Source: Tetragenococcus koreensis
Lineage (GTDB): Bacteria; Bacillota; Bacilli; Lactobacillales; Enterococcaceae
DNA: 64,000 nt
Direction: 5' to 3'
NCBI RefSeq assembly: GCF_003795145.1
Contig: NZ_CP027786.1
Coordinates: forward strand, 248,001 to 312,000
Part shown: piece after piece, positions 34,267 to 43,343 of the stretch
Numbering within the stretch: the first letter of the stretch is position 1
Layout of the letters: each line of letters starts with the position of its first letter
The notes under the pieces: generated by a model
Told to the model about the DNA's origin: nothing
Seen by the model: the letters and a program-made list of their open reading frames with translations, nothing else
The model's database searches: none
Made by a program: the position numbers and the translations under genes

Positions 34267-34707
34267 ATGGAGCCCAATTTTGAACGAATCAATACATTAT
34301 TAGTTGAGGCTTTTAATGATATCTTAGTGATCGAAGAATCTGAGCTGAAAAAGTCGCAATTTAAAGATTTATCGATTACTGAGATGCATACAATAGAAGC
34401 GATCGGTATGTACGAAAAAAAGACTACTTCTGAAGTAGCCAAACAACTTTCGATCACTGTTGGGACATTGACGATCGCAATCAATCGTTTGGTAAAAAAA
34501 GACTATGTTGAACGTCTTCGTAGTGAAGATGATCGACGAGTTGTCAAATTAGGTTTGACCAAAAAGGGGAGATTGATTTTCCGTGTCCATCAGCATTTTC
34601 ATATGCAAATGGTCAAAAGTATTTTGGAAGGCATGGACAGTGAAGAGTCTGTGGCTTTACAAAAGGCATTGGAAAATCTTCATGATTTCCTACAAGATTA
34701 TAAGTGA
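34267..34707 (+). CDS. fabT: Fatty acid biosynthesis repressor FabT (MarR family)
   Basis: 146 residues with a winged helix-turn-helix: helices ITEMHTIEAIGMYEKKTTSEVAKQLSITVGTLTIAINRLVKKDYVERLRSEDDRR lead to the wing DRRVVKLGLTKKG. FabT represses the fab operon when loaded with long-chain acyl-ACP, turning off synthesis when exogenous fatty acids are available. It heads the operon and has the double operator over its own promoter. The ATG follows GGTGTTAGTTA, a weak SD. Confidence 0.93.
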   Translation: MEPNFERINTLLVEAFNDILVIEESELKKSQFKDLSITEMHTIEAIGMYEKKTTSEVAKQLSITVGTLTIAINRLVKKDYVERLRSEDDRRVVKLGLTKKGRLIFRVHQHFHMQMVKSILEGMDSEESVALQKALENLHDFLQDYK

Positions 34708-34717
34708 GTGTAATTGA

Positions 34718-35686
34718 ATGAATAGTTTTGGACAGATCACACAAACAGCCAGTTTCGTTCCTGAAAAAGTCGTGACCAACGATCAATTAGCGCAAATCAT
34801 GGATACCAGTGATGAATGGATTCAATCTCGTACAGGGATTAAAAAACGACACATTGCAACAACTCAGAACACTTCGGATCTTTGTATTAAAGTAGCAGAA
34901 ACACTACTTAAAAAAAGTGAGTATGCTGCTGCAGATCTTGATTTTATCATTGTTGCAACGATGTCTCCTGATTACAATAGTCCTTCGGTTGCTTGCTTAG
35001 TGCAAGGAGCAATTGGTGCAAACCATGCAATGTGTTTTGATTTAAGCGCTGCCTGTTCAGGTTTTGTTTATGCATTATCAATGGGCGATAAGATGATACG
35101 CACTGGTTCTAAAAAGGGCTTGATCATTGGTGGGGAAGTTATCTCTAAAGTGCTAGATTGGACCGATCGGACAACTGCAGTGTTATTTGGTGATGGTGCT
35201 GGTGGTGTTTTATTAGAAGCAGCAGAAAAAGAACATATCACGGCTGAAAATCTACAAGCAGATGGGACGCGAGCGATGTCTTTGACGTCTGGTTTTACCG
35301 CCGTTAATAATCCATATACAGAAGATGGCACGAAGCAAAGTCCTTACTTATCAATGGAAGGACGCGAAATTTTTGATTTTGCGGTAAGAGACGTAGTACA
35401 ACAAATCAAAAAAGTGATGGATGAACAAAATAAAGAAATCGATTATTTCTTACTTCATCAAGCGAATGCGCGTATTTTAGATAAAATCGCGAAGAAAGTC
35501 AATGTTTCCAGAGCAAAATTTTTACAAAACATGGACAGTTATGGAAATACCTCTGCTGCCTCAATTCCAATTTTATTGGATGAAGCAGTAGCAAGTAAAA
35601 AAATTGTTCTTGGAAACCAACAAAATGTGATACTTTCAGGTTTTGGCGGCGGATTAACTTGGGCAACCTTGTCAGTCGTATTATAA
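34718..35686 (+). CDS. fabH: Beta-ketoacyl-ACP synthase III
   Basis: 322 residues of the KAS III thiolase fold. The catalytic Cys is in DLSAACSGFVYAL (C113), with the His in LLHQANARI and the Asn in GNTSAASIPILL. FabH condenses acetyl-CoA (or branched starters) with malonyl-ACP and starts each chain. It lies 10 nt after fabT, with a weak RBS, suggesting coupled translation. Confidence 0.97.
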   Translation: MNSFGQITQTASFVPEKVVTNDQLAQIMDTSDEWIQSRTGIKKRHIATTQNTSDLCIKVAETLLKKSEYAAADLDFIIVATMSPDYNSPSVACLVQGAIGANHAMCFDLSAACSGFVYALSMGDKMIRTGSKKGLIIGGEVISKVLDWTDRTTAVLFGDGAGGVLLEAAEKEHITAENLQADGTRAMSLTSGFTAVNNPYTEDGTKQSPYLSMEGREIFDFAVRDVVQQIKKVMDEQNKEIDYFLLHQANARILDKIAKKVNVSRAKFLQNMDSYGNTSAASIPILLDEAVASKKIVLGNQQNVILSGFGGGLTWATLSVVL

Positions 35687-35732: not shown

Positions 35733-35957
35733 ATGGTATTCGAAAAAATTCAAGGAATCGTAGCAGAAGAATTAGATAAGGAAAAAGACGAAATTAAATT
35801 GTCAACAAACATCCAAGAGGACTTAGAAGCTGACAGCTTGGATCTATTCCAAATTATCAACGAAATCGAAGACGAATTTGATGTAAAAATTGAAACAGAT
35901 GAAGGCATCCAAACAGTCGATGATTTAGTGAAATACGTAGAAAAACAACAAGCTTAA
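35733..35957 (+). CDS. acpP: Acyl carrier protein
   Basis: 74 residues, acidic. The 4'-phosphopantetheine attachment Ser is S35 in [16 protein letters not shown], and the C-terminal helix [19 protein letters not shown] is standard. ACP carries the growing acyl chain between the enzymes of this operon. TTGGAGGAA precedes the ATG. In related operons fabK follows directly; here a 477-bp repeat-bearing gap follows. Confidence 0.96.
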
Positions 35958-36434
35958 TTATCAAGGCTGGGCCCAAAGCCTAGCCTTTGCTTTTGCTGTG
36001 AATCACTACGATTTAGCGACCAAGGGGAGCTAAGAGTAGATGATGAACAGTACTAGGACGAGCGAACGCGAGGCGTAGTCACCTTACTTTCGAATCACTA
36101 CGATTTAGCGACCAAGGGGAGCTAAGAGTAGATGATGAACAGTACTAGGAAGAGCGGAGCGAGGCGTAGTCACCTTACTTTCGAATCACTACGATTTAGC
36201 GACCAAGGGGAGCTAAGAACAGATCCTACAAGGTCTTAGCAACTTGTCGCTTAGACCTTGATGAGATCGAAGCGAAAGCGAAGAGATGAACAGTACTAGG
36301 AAGAGCGAATGCGAGGCGTAGTGTCCGGAATTTTCGAATGGTTGCAAGCTGGGCAGTAAAAAATGCTTACATAAATGATGAACGAATGACAGCAATTGCA
36401 ACTTTAATTAGGAGTAGTTTTAAAGGAGAAGCGG
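35958..36434. other. Gap in the fab operon where fabK would be expected
   Basis: In enterococcal and streptococcal operons the order is acpP-fabK-fabD. This 477-bp gap holds no gene and no recognisable fabK remnant; about 960 bp would be needed for fabK. Most of it is the direct-repeat array described separately. No promoter or terminator of obvious strength is visible, so fabD and later genes presumably depend on the upstream promoter reading through. Confidence 0.7.
36000..36335 (+). repeat. Array of about 91-bp GC-richer direct repeats
   Basis: Unit 1 is 36000-36091, unit 2 36092-36182, unit 3 36183-36335. Units 1 and 2 are almost identical and begin GAATCACTACGATTTAGCGA. Unit 3 shares both ends but carries an about 60-nt insertion that itself forms a hairpin (CAAGGTCTTAGC 36229-36240 with GCTTAGACCTTG 36249-36260, one mismatch). 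Each unit can close through CACTACG near its start and CGTAGT near its end, with TTAGC/GCTAA inside. The last bases (GAATGG) look like the start of a fourth, truncated copy. Base composition is richer in G and C than the flanks. Confidence 0.85.
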
Positions 36435-37355
36435 ATGAAAACAGCTTTTTTATTTAGCGGTCAGGGAGATCAATATCCTGGTATGGGAAAAGAACTCTAT
36501 GATCAATACGAAATTGTCAGAGACACATTTGAACAAGCGTCAAATGTTTTAAATTATGATATGGCAGAATTATGCTTTACCGAAAATGATAAACTGGATC
36601 TAACCGAATATACACAACCTGCTATTTTAACGGTCAGTGTTGCTTTTTTGCGATTACTAAAAGAAAAGGGTATTCAACCTGATGCTGTTGCAGGTTTGAG
36701 CTTAGGCGAATATTCTGCACTAGTGGCAAGTGGAGCATTAGACTTTTCCACAGCAGTTGCTTTAGTTGCAAAACGTGGAAAGTATATGGCAGAGGCGGCT
36801 CCACAAGGCGTTGGTAAAATGGTAGCAGTCATGAACGCACCGATAGATACGATTGAAGAGGCTTGTAAAAAAGCTAGTGAACATGGAATTGTGGCACCGG
36901 CTAATTATAATACGCCTAAACAAATTGTCATCGGCGGTGAAAAAGAAGCAGTTGATCATGCAGTTGATTTATTAACCGAGGCAGGCGTACGTCGTATGAT
37001 CCCTTTGAACGTCAGTGGCCCTTTTCATACGAAACTTTTAGAACCAGCAGCTAAACAATTAAAAGAAACATTACAAAATGTAACTTTTAATGAAATGCAA
37101 ATTCCGGTTATCAGCAATACCACTGCTAACGTTATGCAGCAAGACGAAATCAAACATTTATTGGAATTACAAGTTAAATCGCCTGTTCGTTTTTATGAAA
37201 GTGTTGCAACTTTAAAAGATTTGGGGATTGAACGCGTAGTCGAAGTGGGTCCTGGAAAGACGATCACAGGATTTATGAAAAAAATTGATAAAACAATAAA
37301 AATGAACCGTGTTTCAGATTTGAAGACCTTGCAAGAAACAGAAGAATTTGTTTAA
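36435..37355 (+). CDS. fabD: Malonyl CoA-ACP transacylase
   Basis: 306 residues of the acyltransferase fold. FLFSGQGDQYPGMGKELYD forms the oxyanion region, the nucleophile is S89 in GLSLGEYSAL and the His lies in GPFHTKLLEPA. FabD loads malonyl groups from CoA to ACP. AAAGGAGA precedes the ATG. It follows the repeat-bearing gap and lies 15 nt before fabG. Confidence 0.96.
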   Translation: MKTAFLFSGQGDQYPGMGKELYDQYEIVRDTFEQASNVLNYDMAELCFTENDKLDLTEYTQPAILTVSVAFLRLLKEKGIQPDAVAGLSLGEYSALVASGALDFSTAVALVAKRGKYMAEAAPQGVGKMVAVMNAPIDTIEEACKKASEHGIVAPANYNTPKQIVIGGEKEAVDHAVDLLTEAGVRRMIPLNVSGPFHTKLLEPAAKQLKETLQNVTFNEMQIPVISNTTANVMQQDEIKHLLELQVKSPVRFYESVATLKDLGIERVVEVGPGKTITGFMKKIDKTIKMNRVSDLKTLQETEEFV

Positions 37356-37370
37356 TTAATGGAGGAATCT

Positions 37371-38108
37371 ATGGAACTGCAAAATAAAAATGTATTTGTT
37401 ACTGGCAGTACTCGTGGCATTGGATTAGCTATTGCTAAAGCATTTGCGCAGCAAGGTGCTAACATTGTACTTAATGGACGCAAAGAAATTTCTGCGGAAT
37501 TAATTGCCGAAATTGAGACTTTTGGGGTAAAATGTATTGGTATATCTGGTGATATTTCTGATTTTTCAAGCGCCAAAGATATGCTTGAACAAGCCCAAGA
37601 GCAATTAGGTGAAATTCAGGTGTTGGTCAATAATGCAGGAATGAATAACGACAAATTATTGCTCCGCATGAAAGAAGAAGACTTTGAAGATGTTTTGAAA
37701 GTTAACCTAACTGGAACCTTCAATATGACCCAACATATCCTGAAAAAAATGATGAAACAAAAAGCAGGCGTTATTATCAATATCTCCAGCGTTTCTGGTT
37801 TGATAGGCAATGTCGGTCAAGCAAACTATGCTGCAAGTAAAGCTGGTGTTGTTGGGTTTACTAAAACAGTAGCCAAAGAAGCAGCACCACGTGGTATTAC
37901 TTGCAATGCGATTGCGCCCGGTTTTATTGCTACGGATATGACAGATGTTTTGTCGGATAAAATTAAAGCACAAATCAACGAAACTATTCCATTGCAGCAT
38001 TTAGGTAGCCCAGAAGACGTAGCTAAAACAGCCGTTTTCTTAGCTCAAAGTCCTTATATTACAGGACAAGTGATTAGTGTTGATGGTGGTTTAGTGATGC
38101 AAGGTTAA
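37371..38108 (+). CDS. fabG: 3-oxoacyl-ACP reductase
   Basis: 245 residues of the classical SDR family: NADPH motif TGSTRGIGLAIA, NNAGMNND, catalytic Ser in INISSVSGL, and YAASK active site. FabG reduces 3-ketoacyl-ACP to 3-hydroxyacyl-ACP. The ATG at 37371 is chosen because TGGAGGA lies 6 nt upstream; an upstream ATG at 37359 overlaps that SD. Part of the coupled fabD-fabG-fabF block. Confidence 0.96.
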   Translation: MELQNKNVFVTGSTRGIGLAIAKAFAQQGANIVLNGRKEISAELIAEIETFGVKCIGISGDISDFSSAKDMLEQAQEQLGEIQVLVNNAGMNNDKLLLRMKEEDFEDVLKVNLTGTFNMTQHILKKMMKQKAGVIINISSVSGLIGNVGQANYAASKAGVVGFTKTVAKEAAPRGITCNAIAPGFIATDMTDVLSDKIKAQINETIPLQHLGSPEDVAKTAVFLAQSPYITGQVISVDGGLVMQG

Positions 38109-38150: not shown

Positions 38151-39386
38151 ATGAATCGAGTAGTTATTACAGGTTATGGTGTTGTTTCGCCGATCGGCAA
38201 TGACCCAGAAACCTTTTTATCAAGTTTACAAAATGGGACAAACGGGATTGATAAAATCACGAAGTTTGATGCAGAAGATACCGGCGTTTCAGTAGCAGGT
38301 GAGGTCAAAGACTTTCCCAGAGAGAAATATTTTAAGAAAAAAGATACTAAACGAATGGACCTTTTTTCACTTTATGGCGTTTATGCTGCACTTGATGCCC
38401 TTGAAATGGCAAAATTAGACACAGAGAAAACGGATATGGACCGTTTCGGTGTCATGGTGGGTTCTGGTATCGGTGGATTACCAACGATTCAAGAACAAGT
38501 GACACGCATGAACGAAAAGGGGGCCGATCGTGTTTCGCCAATGTTTGTACCAATGTCAATTGTGAATATGGTCGCTGGAAATATCGCTATGCGTGTAGGT
38601 GCTAAAGGTATTTGCACATCCATTGTTACAGCATGTGCTTCTGGCAATAATTCTATTGGCGAAGCTTTCCGTAATATTAAACATGGTTATCAAGATGTGA
38701 TGCTTGCGGGCGGATCTGAATCAACCATTTGTGAAATCGGCATTGCCGGCTTTGCTTCTTTAACTGCTTTAAGCCGTAACGAAGATCCTAATCATGCTTC
38801 AACGCCTTTTGATACTAATCGTTCAGGCTTTGTTATGGGTGAAGGTGCTGGTGTTCTTTTAATGGAATCACTAGAACATGCTCAAGCTCGCGGAGCTAAT
38901 ATTTTAGGGGAAGTTGTCGGCTATGGTGCTAACTGTGATGCTTATCATATGACCGCACCAAATCCTGATGGTTCAGGTGCCGGAAAAGCCATGAAATTAG
39001 CTATGGATGAAGCGCAAATCACTCCTGAACAAATCGGCTATGTTAATGCTCATGGAACAGCAACGCCGGCTAACGATGTATCAGAAGCGACCGCTATTCA
39101 CTATGGTTTAGGCGAACATGCCAAAGATGTCTATGTCAGCAGTACCAAATCAATGACCGGACACTTGTTAGGAGCTGCCGGTGGAATCGAATCCGTTGCT
39201 TCCTTGTTAGCTTTACAACATCAATTTGTACCAGCTAGTATTAATGTAACTGAACAAGATCCAGACATTGATTTAAACGTGGTGAAAAACCAAAGTATCG
39301 ACGCGAATTTAGACTATGTATTGAGCAATTCAATGGGCTTTGGTGGCCATAATGCGGTATTATTGATGAAACGTTGGGAGGCATAA
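38151..39386 (+). CDS. fabF: Beta-ketoacyl-ACP synthase II
   Basis: 411 residues of the KAS I/II family. The nucleophile is C162 in TACASGNNSIGEA, with the two His residues in NAHGTATPAND and STKSMTGHLLGAAGG. FabF elongates the acyl chain using malonyl-ACP. GGAGGGAGAAGC precedes the ATG, and its stop lies 2 nt before the accB start. Confidence 0.97.
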   Translation: MNRVVITGYGVVSPIGNDPETFLSSLQNGTNGIDKITKFDAEDTGVSVAGEVKDFPREKYFKKKDTKRMDLFSLYGVYAALDALEMAKLDTEKTDMDRFGVMVGSGIGGLPTIQEQVTRMNEKGADRVSPMFVPMSIVNMVAGNIAMRVGAKGICTSIVTACASGNNSIGEAFRNIKHGYQDVMLAGGSESTICEIGIAGFASLTALSRNEDPNHASTPFDTNRSGFVMGEGAGVLLMESLEHAQARGANILGEVVGYGANCDAYHMTAPNPDGSGAGKAMKLAMDEAQITPEQIGYVNAHGTATPANDVSEATAIHYGLGEHAKDVYVSSTKSMTGHLLGAAGGIESVASLLALQHQFVPASINVTEQDPDIDLNVVKNQSIDANLDYVLSNSMGFGGHNAVLLMKRWEA

Positions 39387-39879: not shown

Positions 39880-40308
39880 ATGTCAGTAATGAATATTCAA
39901 GAGATCAAAGAAATCATCCCGCATCGTTTTCCTATGCTCTTACTTGATCGCATAGAAGAGTTAGAAGAAGGAAAACGGATTGTGGCTAAAAAGAATGTTA
40001 CAGTTAATGAACCATTTTTTCAAGGTCATTTTCCTCATGAACCAGTGATGCCAGGAGTTTTGATTATTGAAGCAATGGCACAAGCAGGTGCTGTTTCTCT
40101 GCTTAGCTTAGAACAGTTTCGTGGGAAAACTGCTTATTTTGGTGGTATTGACAAAGCCAAATTCCGCAAAAAAGTTACTCCTGGCGATACACTAATGTTA
40201 GAAGTTGAACTGTTAAAAGTGAAATCTTCTGCGGGCATTGGTAAAGGTATCGCTCGTGTTGACGGAAAAAAAGTAGCGGAAGCAGAATTAACGTTCATGA
40301 TTGGATAG
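39880..40308 (+). CDS. fabZ: 3-hydroxyacyl-ACP dehydratase
   Basis: 142 residues of the hotdog fold. The catalytic His is in [20 protein letters not shown], with the Glu in the same motif. FabZ-type enzymes dehydrate 3-hydroxyacyl-ACP; in enterococci one of two paralogues (FabN) also isomerises to make unsaturated acids, but the operon copy next to accB/accC is normally the plain FabZ. The stop lies just before accC. Confidence 0.93.
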
Positions 40309-42557: not shown

Positions 42558-43343
42558 ATGAAAAGATCTGCACATGAGATCGTTCAACTAGCTCGCGATC
42601 AAAAACGCCTGACCTCTTTGGATTATATTGAACGTATCTTTGAAAACTTTCAAGAATTTCACGGCGATCGTTATTATGCAGATGATGAAGCTGTGGTTGG
42701 TGGCGTTGCTTTATTAGACAACAAGCCAGTGACAGTGATTGGAATTCAAAAAGGTAAAAATTTACCAGAAAATTTAAGACGTAATTTTGGCTCTGCTAAA
42801 CCTGAAGGTTATCGTAAAGCACTACGCCTAATGAAACAAGCTGAAAAGTTTGGTCGTCCTGTTGTTACCTTTATTAACACTTCTGGGGCGTATTCTGGTG
42901 TCAGTGCAGAAGAACGTGGTGAAGGGGAAGCAATTGCCAAAAACTTGTTTGAAATGGCTGACTTAAGTGTACCCATTATTTCAATTATTATCGGTGAAGG
43001 CGGCAGTGGTGGGGCACTAGCATTAGCCGTGGCTGATGAAGTTTGGATGCTGGAAAATTCTATTTATGCCGTGTTGCCACCAGAAAGTTTTGCTTCGATT
43101 TTGTGGAAAGATAGTAGCCGTGCGGAGGAAGCTGCGGACTTGATGAAGATTACGGCTCAAGAATTAAAAGAGCTGGATGTTATTGAGCAAGTCATTCCAG
43201 AATCATTCCGTGGCGAACCCATATCAGAAGAAGCAATTTTGCGGCGAGTCAAAGCCGATTTAACTTGGAAATTAAATGATCTTGCTAAAAGAGAACCTGC
43301 TAAATTAGTGCAAGACCGCTATGAACGTTTCCGTAAATTTTAA
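42558..43343 (+). CDS. accA: Acetyl-CoA carboxylase carboxyltransferase alpha subunit
   Basis: 261 residues, the short Firmicutes form lacking the N-terminal helical extension of the E. coli protein. Crotonase-type motifs [21 protein letters not shown] and [16 protein letters not shown] are present. It completes the carboxyltransferase with AccD. It is the last gene of the fab-acc operon, closed by a terminator 7 nt after the stop. Confidence 0.97.

Follow-up and report, generated by a model that had tools for sequence, protein, structure and literature searches.

A tandem array of a terminator-associated repeat with predicted RNA structure in the fatty acid operon of Tetragenococcus koreensis

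The gap between acpP and fabD in the fatty acid synthesis operon of Tetragenococcus koreensis is very probably no scar of a lost gene. Instead, it appears to hold a tandem array of a mobile, structured element that homes to terminators, with the enoyl-ACP reductase FabI, encoded elsewhere, standing in for FabK. A preliminary description of the window (the whole stretch of 64,000 nucleotides that was analysed; contig NZ_CP027786.1, positions 248,001 to 312,000) had reported a 477-bp gap that contains three long direct repeats and no reductase gene, all of which is confirmed in the sequence. It had also suggested that the repeats mark a deletion, a reading that fared less well.

The genes flanking the gap are fabT (34267..34707; NF050133, 210.3 bits, cut-off 200), fabH (34718..35686; TIGR00747, 332.4 bits, cut-off 292.1) and acpP (35733..35957) on one side, and fabD (36435..37355; TIGR00128, 340.2 bits, cut-off 260.9), fabG (37359..38108; TIGR01830, 323.6 bits, cut-off 297.75), fabF (38151..39386; TIGR03150, 610.1 bits, cut-off 493.75), fabZ (39880..40308; TIGR01750, 197.1 bits, cut-off 155.15) and accA (42558..43343; TIGR00513, 363.4 bits, cut-off 319.3) on the other, all on the plus strand. 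Eight operon proteins were scanned, and seven scored over their cut-offs; the acyl carrier protein AcpP matched no NCBIfam family at 1e-40 and was recognized from its open reading frame (ORF), a DSL motif seen by eye and tblastn matches to ACP loci. The genes accB, accC and accD were identified from ORFs only.

According to the window sequence and its ORFs, acpP stops at 35957 and the first base of fabD is 36435. The sole ORF of at least 60 codons in the gap encodes 62 amino acids on the minus strand (36213-36401). A repeat search found a 65-nt direct repeat beginning at 36000, 36092 and 36183 (spacing 92 and 91), with copies 2 and 3 being 98% and 74% identical to the first, and a second repeat of 49 nt at 36042 and 36285 (86% identity). 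The third 65-nt copy diverges after 36 nt because it belongs to a longer version of the unit that carries an extra module.

Read on the plus strand, the gap opens directly 3' of acpP with a terminator-like hairpin, AAGGCTGGGC-CCAAA-GCCTAGCCTT (35963..35987), recognized from the sequence and from an alignment of seven loci. Its T-tract of four T's (35991..35994) is the insertion point, as judged from the sequence and from comparison with other sites. Next is the left end of the element, GCTGT (35995..35999, followed by GAATCAC), which is missing from empty sites at two other loci. Then follow short unit 1 (36000..36083), short unit 2 (36092..36174) and a long unit (36183..36326), the last consisting of a short unit plus a hairpin module of roughly 60 nt. 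A covariance model of the long unit, R1, matches these at G000:C1:284000-284083 (67.3 bits), G000:C1:284092-284174 (61.6 bits) and G000:C1:284183-284326 (159.7 bits), where G000 is the host genome and subtraction of 248000 gives window positions. The third match holds by construction, because this long unit is a member of the alignment, A2, from which R1 was made.

The missing fabK is ordinary and unremarkable, because the gene is absent from this position at many loci and is dispensable in Enterococcus faecalis. FabD was used to retrieve 80 named loci, and the acpP-fabD gap was measurable in 78; fabK was absent from 52 of these and present in 26. The enterococcal gene order with fabK that the preliminary description took as its standard thus applies to part of the family only. 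The fabK-less set comprises all five measurable Tetragenococcus loci (a sixth begins within the gap and is therefore unmeasurable), most Enterococcus loci and six Lactococcus loci, and 50 of its 52 gaps are at most 192 bp long. Gaps that carry fabK occur in loci that we take to belong to relatives of E. faecalis, and in E. canis, Pilibacter, streptococci and some other loci. Tetragenococcus loci lack fabK both with and without repeats in the gap; T. halophilus subsp. flandriensis, T. solitarius and T. muriaticus have neither the gene nor the array. In E. faecalis, whose fab operon has the same gene order around the gap and does carry fabK, one report places the gene for the main reductase outside the operon and describes translation of fabK as inefficient (PMC9083066), and another states that cells with fabK knocked out are viable in the absence of fatty acids (PMC9260719). 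Tetragenococcus differs from E. faecalis in having FabI only.

These comparisons bear on the idea that recombination between repeats on either side removed fabK and left the array behind. The presence of fabK between acpP and fabD in 26 of the 78 loci, including E. faecalis relatives and streptococci, would be compatible with such a loss. However, array-free sisters are fabK-less too, the repeats are dispersed behind many other terminators, and no FabK remnant was detected when four FabK proteins were compared by tblastn with six gaps: among the 30 rows of this comparison, the best E-value was 0.64 in the window gap and 0.026 overall, the latter on the antisense strand of a T. halophilus array. 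As a positive control, a fabK-bearing gap returned a full-length match. We therefore regard a deletion scar as very improbable. A recent loss of fabK was rejected.

An assembly that had collapsed across the repeats and dropped a real fabK deserves almost no credence. Repeats can break assemblies, and contigs of one draft genome (G008) do end inside the acpP array. However, FabK did not exceed the cut-off of 453 bits in any of nine Tetragenococcus genomes (best 207 bits, in G006), three of these genomes (G000, G005 and G007) are assembled in 2 to 5 contigs, and the array-free sisters have a short gap without fabK. No sister genome was found to hold the repeats together with fabK.

The last step of elongation is most likely performed by FabI from another locus, as judged from profile matches. 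The preliminary description had expected a reductase to be encoded elsewhere in the genome, and a profile search bears this out: a FabI protein encoded at G000:C1:599243-599992 scores 428.7 bits to NF004748 (cut-off 362), and no host protein exceeds the cut-off for FabK (TIGR03151, best 26.9 bits, cut-off 453.1). The FabI translation contains YNMMGIAK, which by eye fits the Y-x6-K active-site motif of FabI, and its score to the FabL model NF005975 (128.6 bits) is below the cut-off of 328. Since the host has FabI, neither FabK nor outside fatty acids are needed to explain the gap, and the fatty acid auxotrophy that had been offered as an alternative was rejected as its explanation. The fabI gene and a second gene for a FabZ-type dehydratase are divergently oriented (L025:1492-2881) and form a separate fatty acid locus.

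FabI exceeds its cut-off in eight of the nine Tetragenococcus genomes, the host included; the exception, G008, is a draft of 88% completeness. Our profile survey covered 59 genomes, 36 of them from Enterococcaceae. Within these 36, FabI was over the cut-off in 31, FabK in six, both in three and neither in two (G008 and G014), and three further genomes (G018, G025 and G032) have FabK-like matches of 352-407 bits, which is below the cut-off. As a separate observation, G014, from Enterococcaceae genus g7, has both proteins below the cut-off and no DNA match to the acpP-fabD region, and might be a fatty acid auxotroph.

The gap repeats recur at four further sites in the host, making five in total, and the repeat was found in seven of the nine Tetragenococcus genomes; a covariance-model search yielded no element in T. 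muriaticus or in G003. Each of three T. halophilus genomes has approximately 21-26 element sites, and the count for T. halophilus DSM 20339 is approximately 21, where sites are our own grouping of repeat and model matches. We extracted 48 units from 30 loci, which fall into 25 short units (79-85 nt, mode 84) and 23 long units (141-145 nt, mode 144), a long unit being a short unit with an additional module of about 60 nt. By eye, arrays mostly end in a long unit, and spacers are similar within one array and differ across arrays. This likeness within arrays suggests that the arrays grew by local tandem duplication. The left-end sequence TTTTGCTGTGAATCAC, with at most one mismatch, is present in eight of the nine genomes, and its reversed control in none.

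No long ORF is present in the element units of 79-145 nt. Rfam yielded no match in the window at the gathering score and, for seven loci scanned at E<=10, nothing overlying the arrays. The Tetragenococcus array, compared with plasmids only, found no match there, nor did an Enterococcus-type element (see below) in collections of plasmids and phages. In the literature covered, which included few subscription papers, we found no report on intergenic repeats of Tetragenococcus or on terminator-inserted repeats of Enterococcaceae.

The element sits directly 3' of the T-tracts of intrinsic terminators, in one orientation, and its arrays repeatedly begin hairpin-TTTTTT-GCTGTGAATCAC. This targeting rule is sharper than we found described in the literature searched. 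It was established on 62 site loci, namely the window, one G007 locus and 60 stretches of G000, G002, G005, G006 and G008; outside this set are all 24 G004 sites, two contig-end sites of G006, one duplicate G005 site and four G008 sites. A T-tract precedes the left end at 56 of the 62 loci, and the other six offer no usable strict left end. At one of these six, L235, the left end does lie behind a T-tract, with a failed test of the unit tail and a hairpin of -5.1.

The strict left end matched 65 times in the 62 loci, and 56 matches were distinct by the 22 nt upstream. A T-tract precedes 48 of the 56, a number that includes orthologous sites (acpP three times, pyr twice) and thus does not represent 48 independent insertions. 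The upstream hairpin reaches -8 kcal/mol or lower at 47 of these and -7.8 at the last (median over the 48, -13.95). Of the eight distinct matches without a T-tract, inspection by eye placed seven within a unit, on its opposite strand, and the eighth in flanking DNA. In control sets, 120 of 12,400 random positions in the 62 loci passed, as did 72 of 960 shuffled upstream sequences in which the T-tract was kept. The strict count accepts a run of four T's, on which the host acpP site, L124, L233 and L234 depend. A loose left-end pattern, which also picked up internal units and antisense matches, gave 82 matches, 73 of them distinct, 44 with at least five T's of six, and 43 of these 44 with a hairpin.

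Some of the target terminators are regulatory. For example, the terminator at L139 is that of a T-box (RF00230, 118.3 bits, gathering 93). Below gathering are a T-box at L136 (72.1 of 93) and a PyrR match at L127 (52.3 of 54).

The core of the hairpin at the acpP site, GGCTRGGC..GCCTRGYC, searched with at most two substitutions in the 360 nt before fabD, is present in 29 of the 52 fabK-less gaps, compared with 20 of 1040 control windows. A looser definition, a hairpin of -8 kcal/mol or lower close to T's and no more than 110 nt from acpP, applies to 48 of the 52 fabK-less and 17 of the 26 fabK-bearing loci. We rely on the core count, because the looser search selects the most favorable among many positions and lacks a control. 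Within the fab operon, the hairpin at 35963-35994 may raise expression of acpP above that of the downstream genes.

Filled and empty versions of the same site define the junctions. The pyr locus of the host carries two short units and one long unit, and its counterpart in G008 also contains the element; in G001, G002 and G004-G007 the terminator is bare, followed by a few other bases and an A-run, with no element. G003 is also bare there, but too diverged for close alignment. A second terminator carries one short unit in the T. halophilus genomes G004, G005 and G006 and is bare in G000, G001, G002 and G007, with G003 and G008 matching partially and remaining outside the alignment. In these two filled/empty pairs, the left boundary of the element is GCTGT, directly behind the T-tract. 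By eye, neither pair has clear terminal inverted repeats or a clear target duplication, although the T-rich targets could mask a short duplication. The element does contain a subterminal CACTACG/CGTAGTG pair.

The acpP site is filled in the host, G007, G008, G004 and G005, and unfilled in T. halophilus subsp. flandriensis (G006), T. solitarius (G002), T. muriaticus (G001) and G003. In flandriensis, the sequence after the T-tract is GCTGCAATTTTTTGCAG. Since the empty acpP sites of flandriensis and T. solitarius already read GCTG behind the T-tract, these two sites may have lost the element.

The units carry covarying hairpins according to structure prediction. RNAalifold, applied to the 23 long units, predicted 38 pairs in five helices. 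In the alignment, 96.8% of paired cells can pair, compared with 94.6% after shuffling; eight pairs are changed on both sides (shuffled mean, 3.4), as are 27 cells (shuffled, 7.3). None of 500 shuffles reached any of these three values, although kinship of the sequences can beat shuffles without any structure. Hairpin 1 holds five of the eight doubly changed pairs. The count of further standard pair types (18, compared with 18.5 after shuffling) has no excess in the 23 long units, and nine of the 38 base pairs fail to pair in at least two of them. Slid structures pair only 23-42% of cells, a control that is biased toward the structure because the structure was predicted from the same 23 sequences. 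G-U pairs at columns 13-36 and 117-147 of the prediction suggest that the folded strand is the one read from the terminator.

Compensatory changes in hairpins, G-U pairs on the terminator-read strand, and regular placement behind terminators, a T-box among them, are also what a resident regulatory RNA might exhibit, for example, an immobile module that evolved together with terminators and controls read-through. However, the element is present or absent at orthologous terminators with clean junctions, and the model search finds none in T. muriaticus or G003. We consider such a resident RNA distinctly unlikely, and favor a mobile element.

Other elements in these genomes share the target. By eye, seven of eight group II intron copies in Tetragenococcus are behind terminator T-tracts, and five of seven copies of an IS200/IS605-like Y1 element are behind terminators. 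Introns, the Y1 element and the repeat are all found behind terminators, and thus three kinds of element share a target. The loci in which an intron or Y1 copy is behind a terminator are L268, L276-L279, L281, L282, L286-L288, L290 and L291. At L283, from T. halophilus, one group II intron copy appears to lie directly behind or inside another.

Either of these elements could supply the machinery that moves the repeat. Elements of the IS200/IS605 family have a fixed orientation, no obvious terminal inverted repeats, and subterminal hairpins, features that they and their miniature derivatives have in common with the repeat. Group II introns have GUGYG ends. Like the repeat, group IIC introns are inserted 3' of a hairpin and T-tract, a comparison in which the Tetragenococcus introns are classed as group II only. 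The Tetragenococcus introns are about 1.85 kb long and encode a maturase, whereas the repeat is ORF-less and has different ends. In seven loci scanned with Rfam at E<=10, none of the matches belonged to a group II intron family, and blastn found no match to the element unit in the intron and Y1 loci.

Retro-mobility, in which the reverse transcriptase of a group IIC intron inserts read-through transcripts into the same kind of target, would fit the position of the Tetragenococcus introns behind T-tracts, and passages of one report state that group IIC introns recognize a DNA stem-loop (PMC10190682). However, the element lacks intron-like ends, and maturase counts are unlinked to element counts; retro-mobility is, in our estimate, rather unlikely. 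Neither maturase nor Y1 transposase counts follow the copy number of the element: G002 lacks both enzymes, yet has the element at about nine sites; G007 combines 23 maturase matches with a single element site; and G001 encodes a Y1 transposase but is element-free, in which case it should be borne in mind that drafts can miss repeats. A 16-mer search revealed no larger autonomous partner with the same left end; by eye, exact matches were at known sites, and one-mismatch matches outside known arrays were at G005:C1:258667, G006:C9:2904 and G003:C204:5942.

Relatives of the element occur beyond the genus. The covariance model of the long unit has matches in 39 of 105 Enterococcaceae genomes, representing 7 of 17 genera including Tetragenococcus, in counts made with stricter filters that lose some weak matches. 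Beyond Tetragenococcus, most of the matches come from genus g9, whose members include E. plantarum and E. ureasiticus. A left end behind T's was found at 15 of 23 loci from other genera, in a search that itself required the T's. One Enterococcus-type copy, L158, was inspected by eye: it lies behind a T-box-like terminator and contains two hairpins in about 150 nt. The Enterococcus type, examined by eye in genus-g9 copies, has the long module inverted and before hairpin 1; in contrast, the module follows hairpin 1 in the Tetragenococcus unit.

The element resembles, by description, two repeat families of E. faecalis. EFAR repeats, reportedly described in FEMS Microbiol. Lett. in 2007, are said to be miniature insertion sequences with a modular, structured build, 42-650 bp in length, whose target sequences can form stem-loops. 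The Tetragenococcus element likewise inserts at stem-loops, and it resembles the EFAR description in being modular, structured and inserted at stem-loops. The Efa-1 stem-loop family, according to passages of its report, is 163 nt long, with 65 intergenic copies that form two adjacent stem-loops (PMC2267715), and is thus similar in size and two-hairpin shape, as compared by description only.

We propose that a non-autonomous structured element inserts in one orientation directly behind the T-tract of an intrinsic terminator, and that it would have landed behind acpP because the acpP-fabD gap carries a terminator-like hairpin within the operon. Movement would occur in trans, through a host transposase or reverse transcriptase that recognizes the hairpin and T-tract. 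Of the two, we slightly favor a Y1 transposase of the IS200/IS605-like kind, ahead of the reverse transcriptase of a group IIC intron. After insertion, arrays would expand by tandem duplication. The effect on the operon would presumably be mild or nil, because transcripts that reach fabD already read past the hairpin, and FabI would carry the elongation flux.

A broader proposal is that protein-free, RNA-structured elements of Enterococcaceae home to terminator T-tracts, attenuators included, possibly via a read-through RNA intermediate, and then form tandem arrays, with terminators being a niche shared with group II introns and IS200-like elements of the same chromosome. We offer this only tentatively and think it rather unlikely. 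If true, terminators would be a common niche for three kinds of element in one chromosome.

For T. koreensis, these results close a false lead: the species has FabI, and FabK or outside fatty acids need not be invoked. Given FabI, triclosan-type FabI inhibitors are expected to act on this host. The repeat provides a clear integration rule, comprising a hairpin and T-tract, one orientation and natural empty sites, and two other classes of mobile element in these genomes use the same kind of target. This rule could help to find the mover of orphan repeats, and to learn whether arrays behind attenuators alter read-through.
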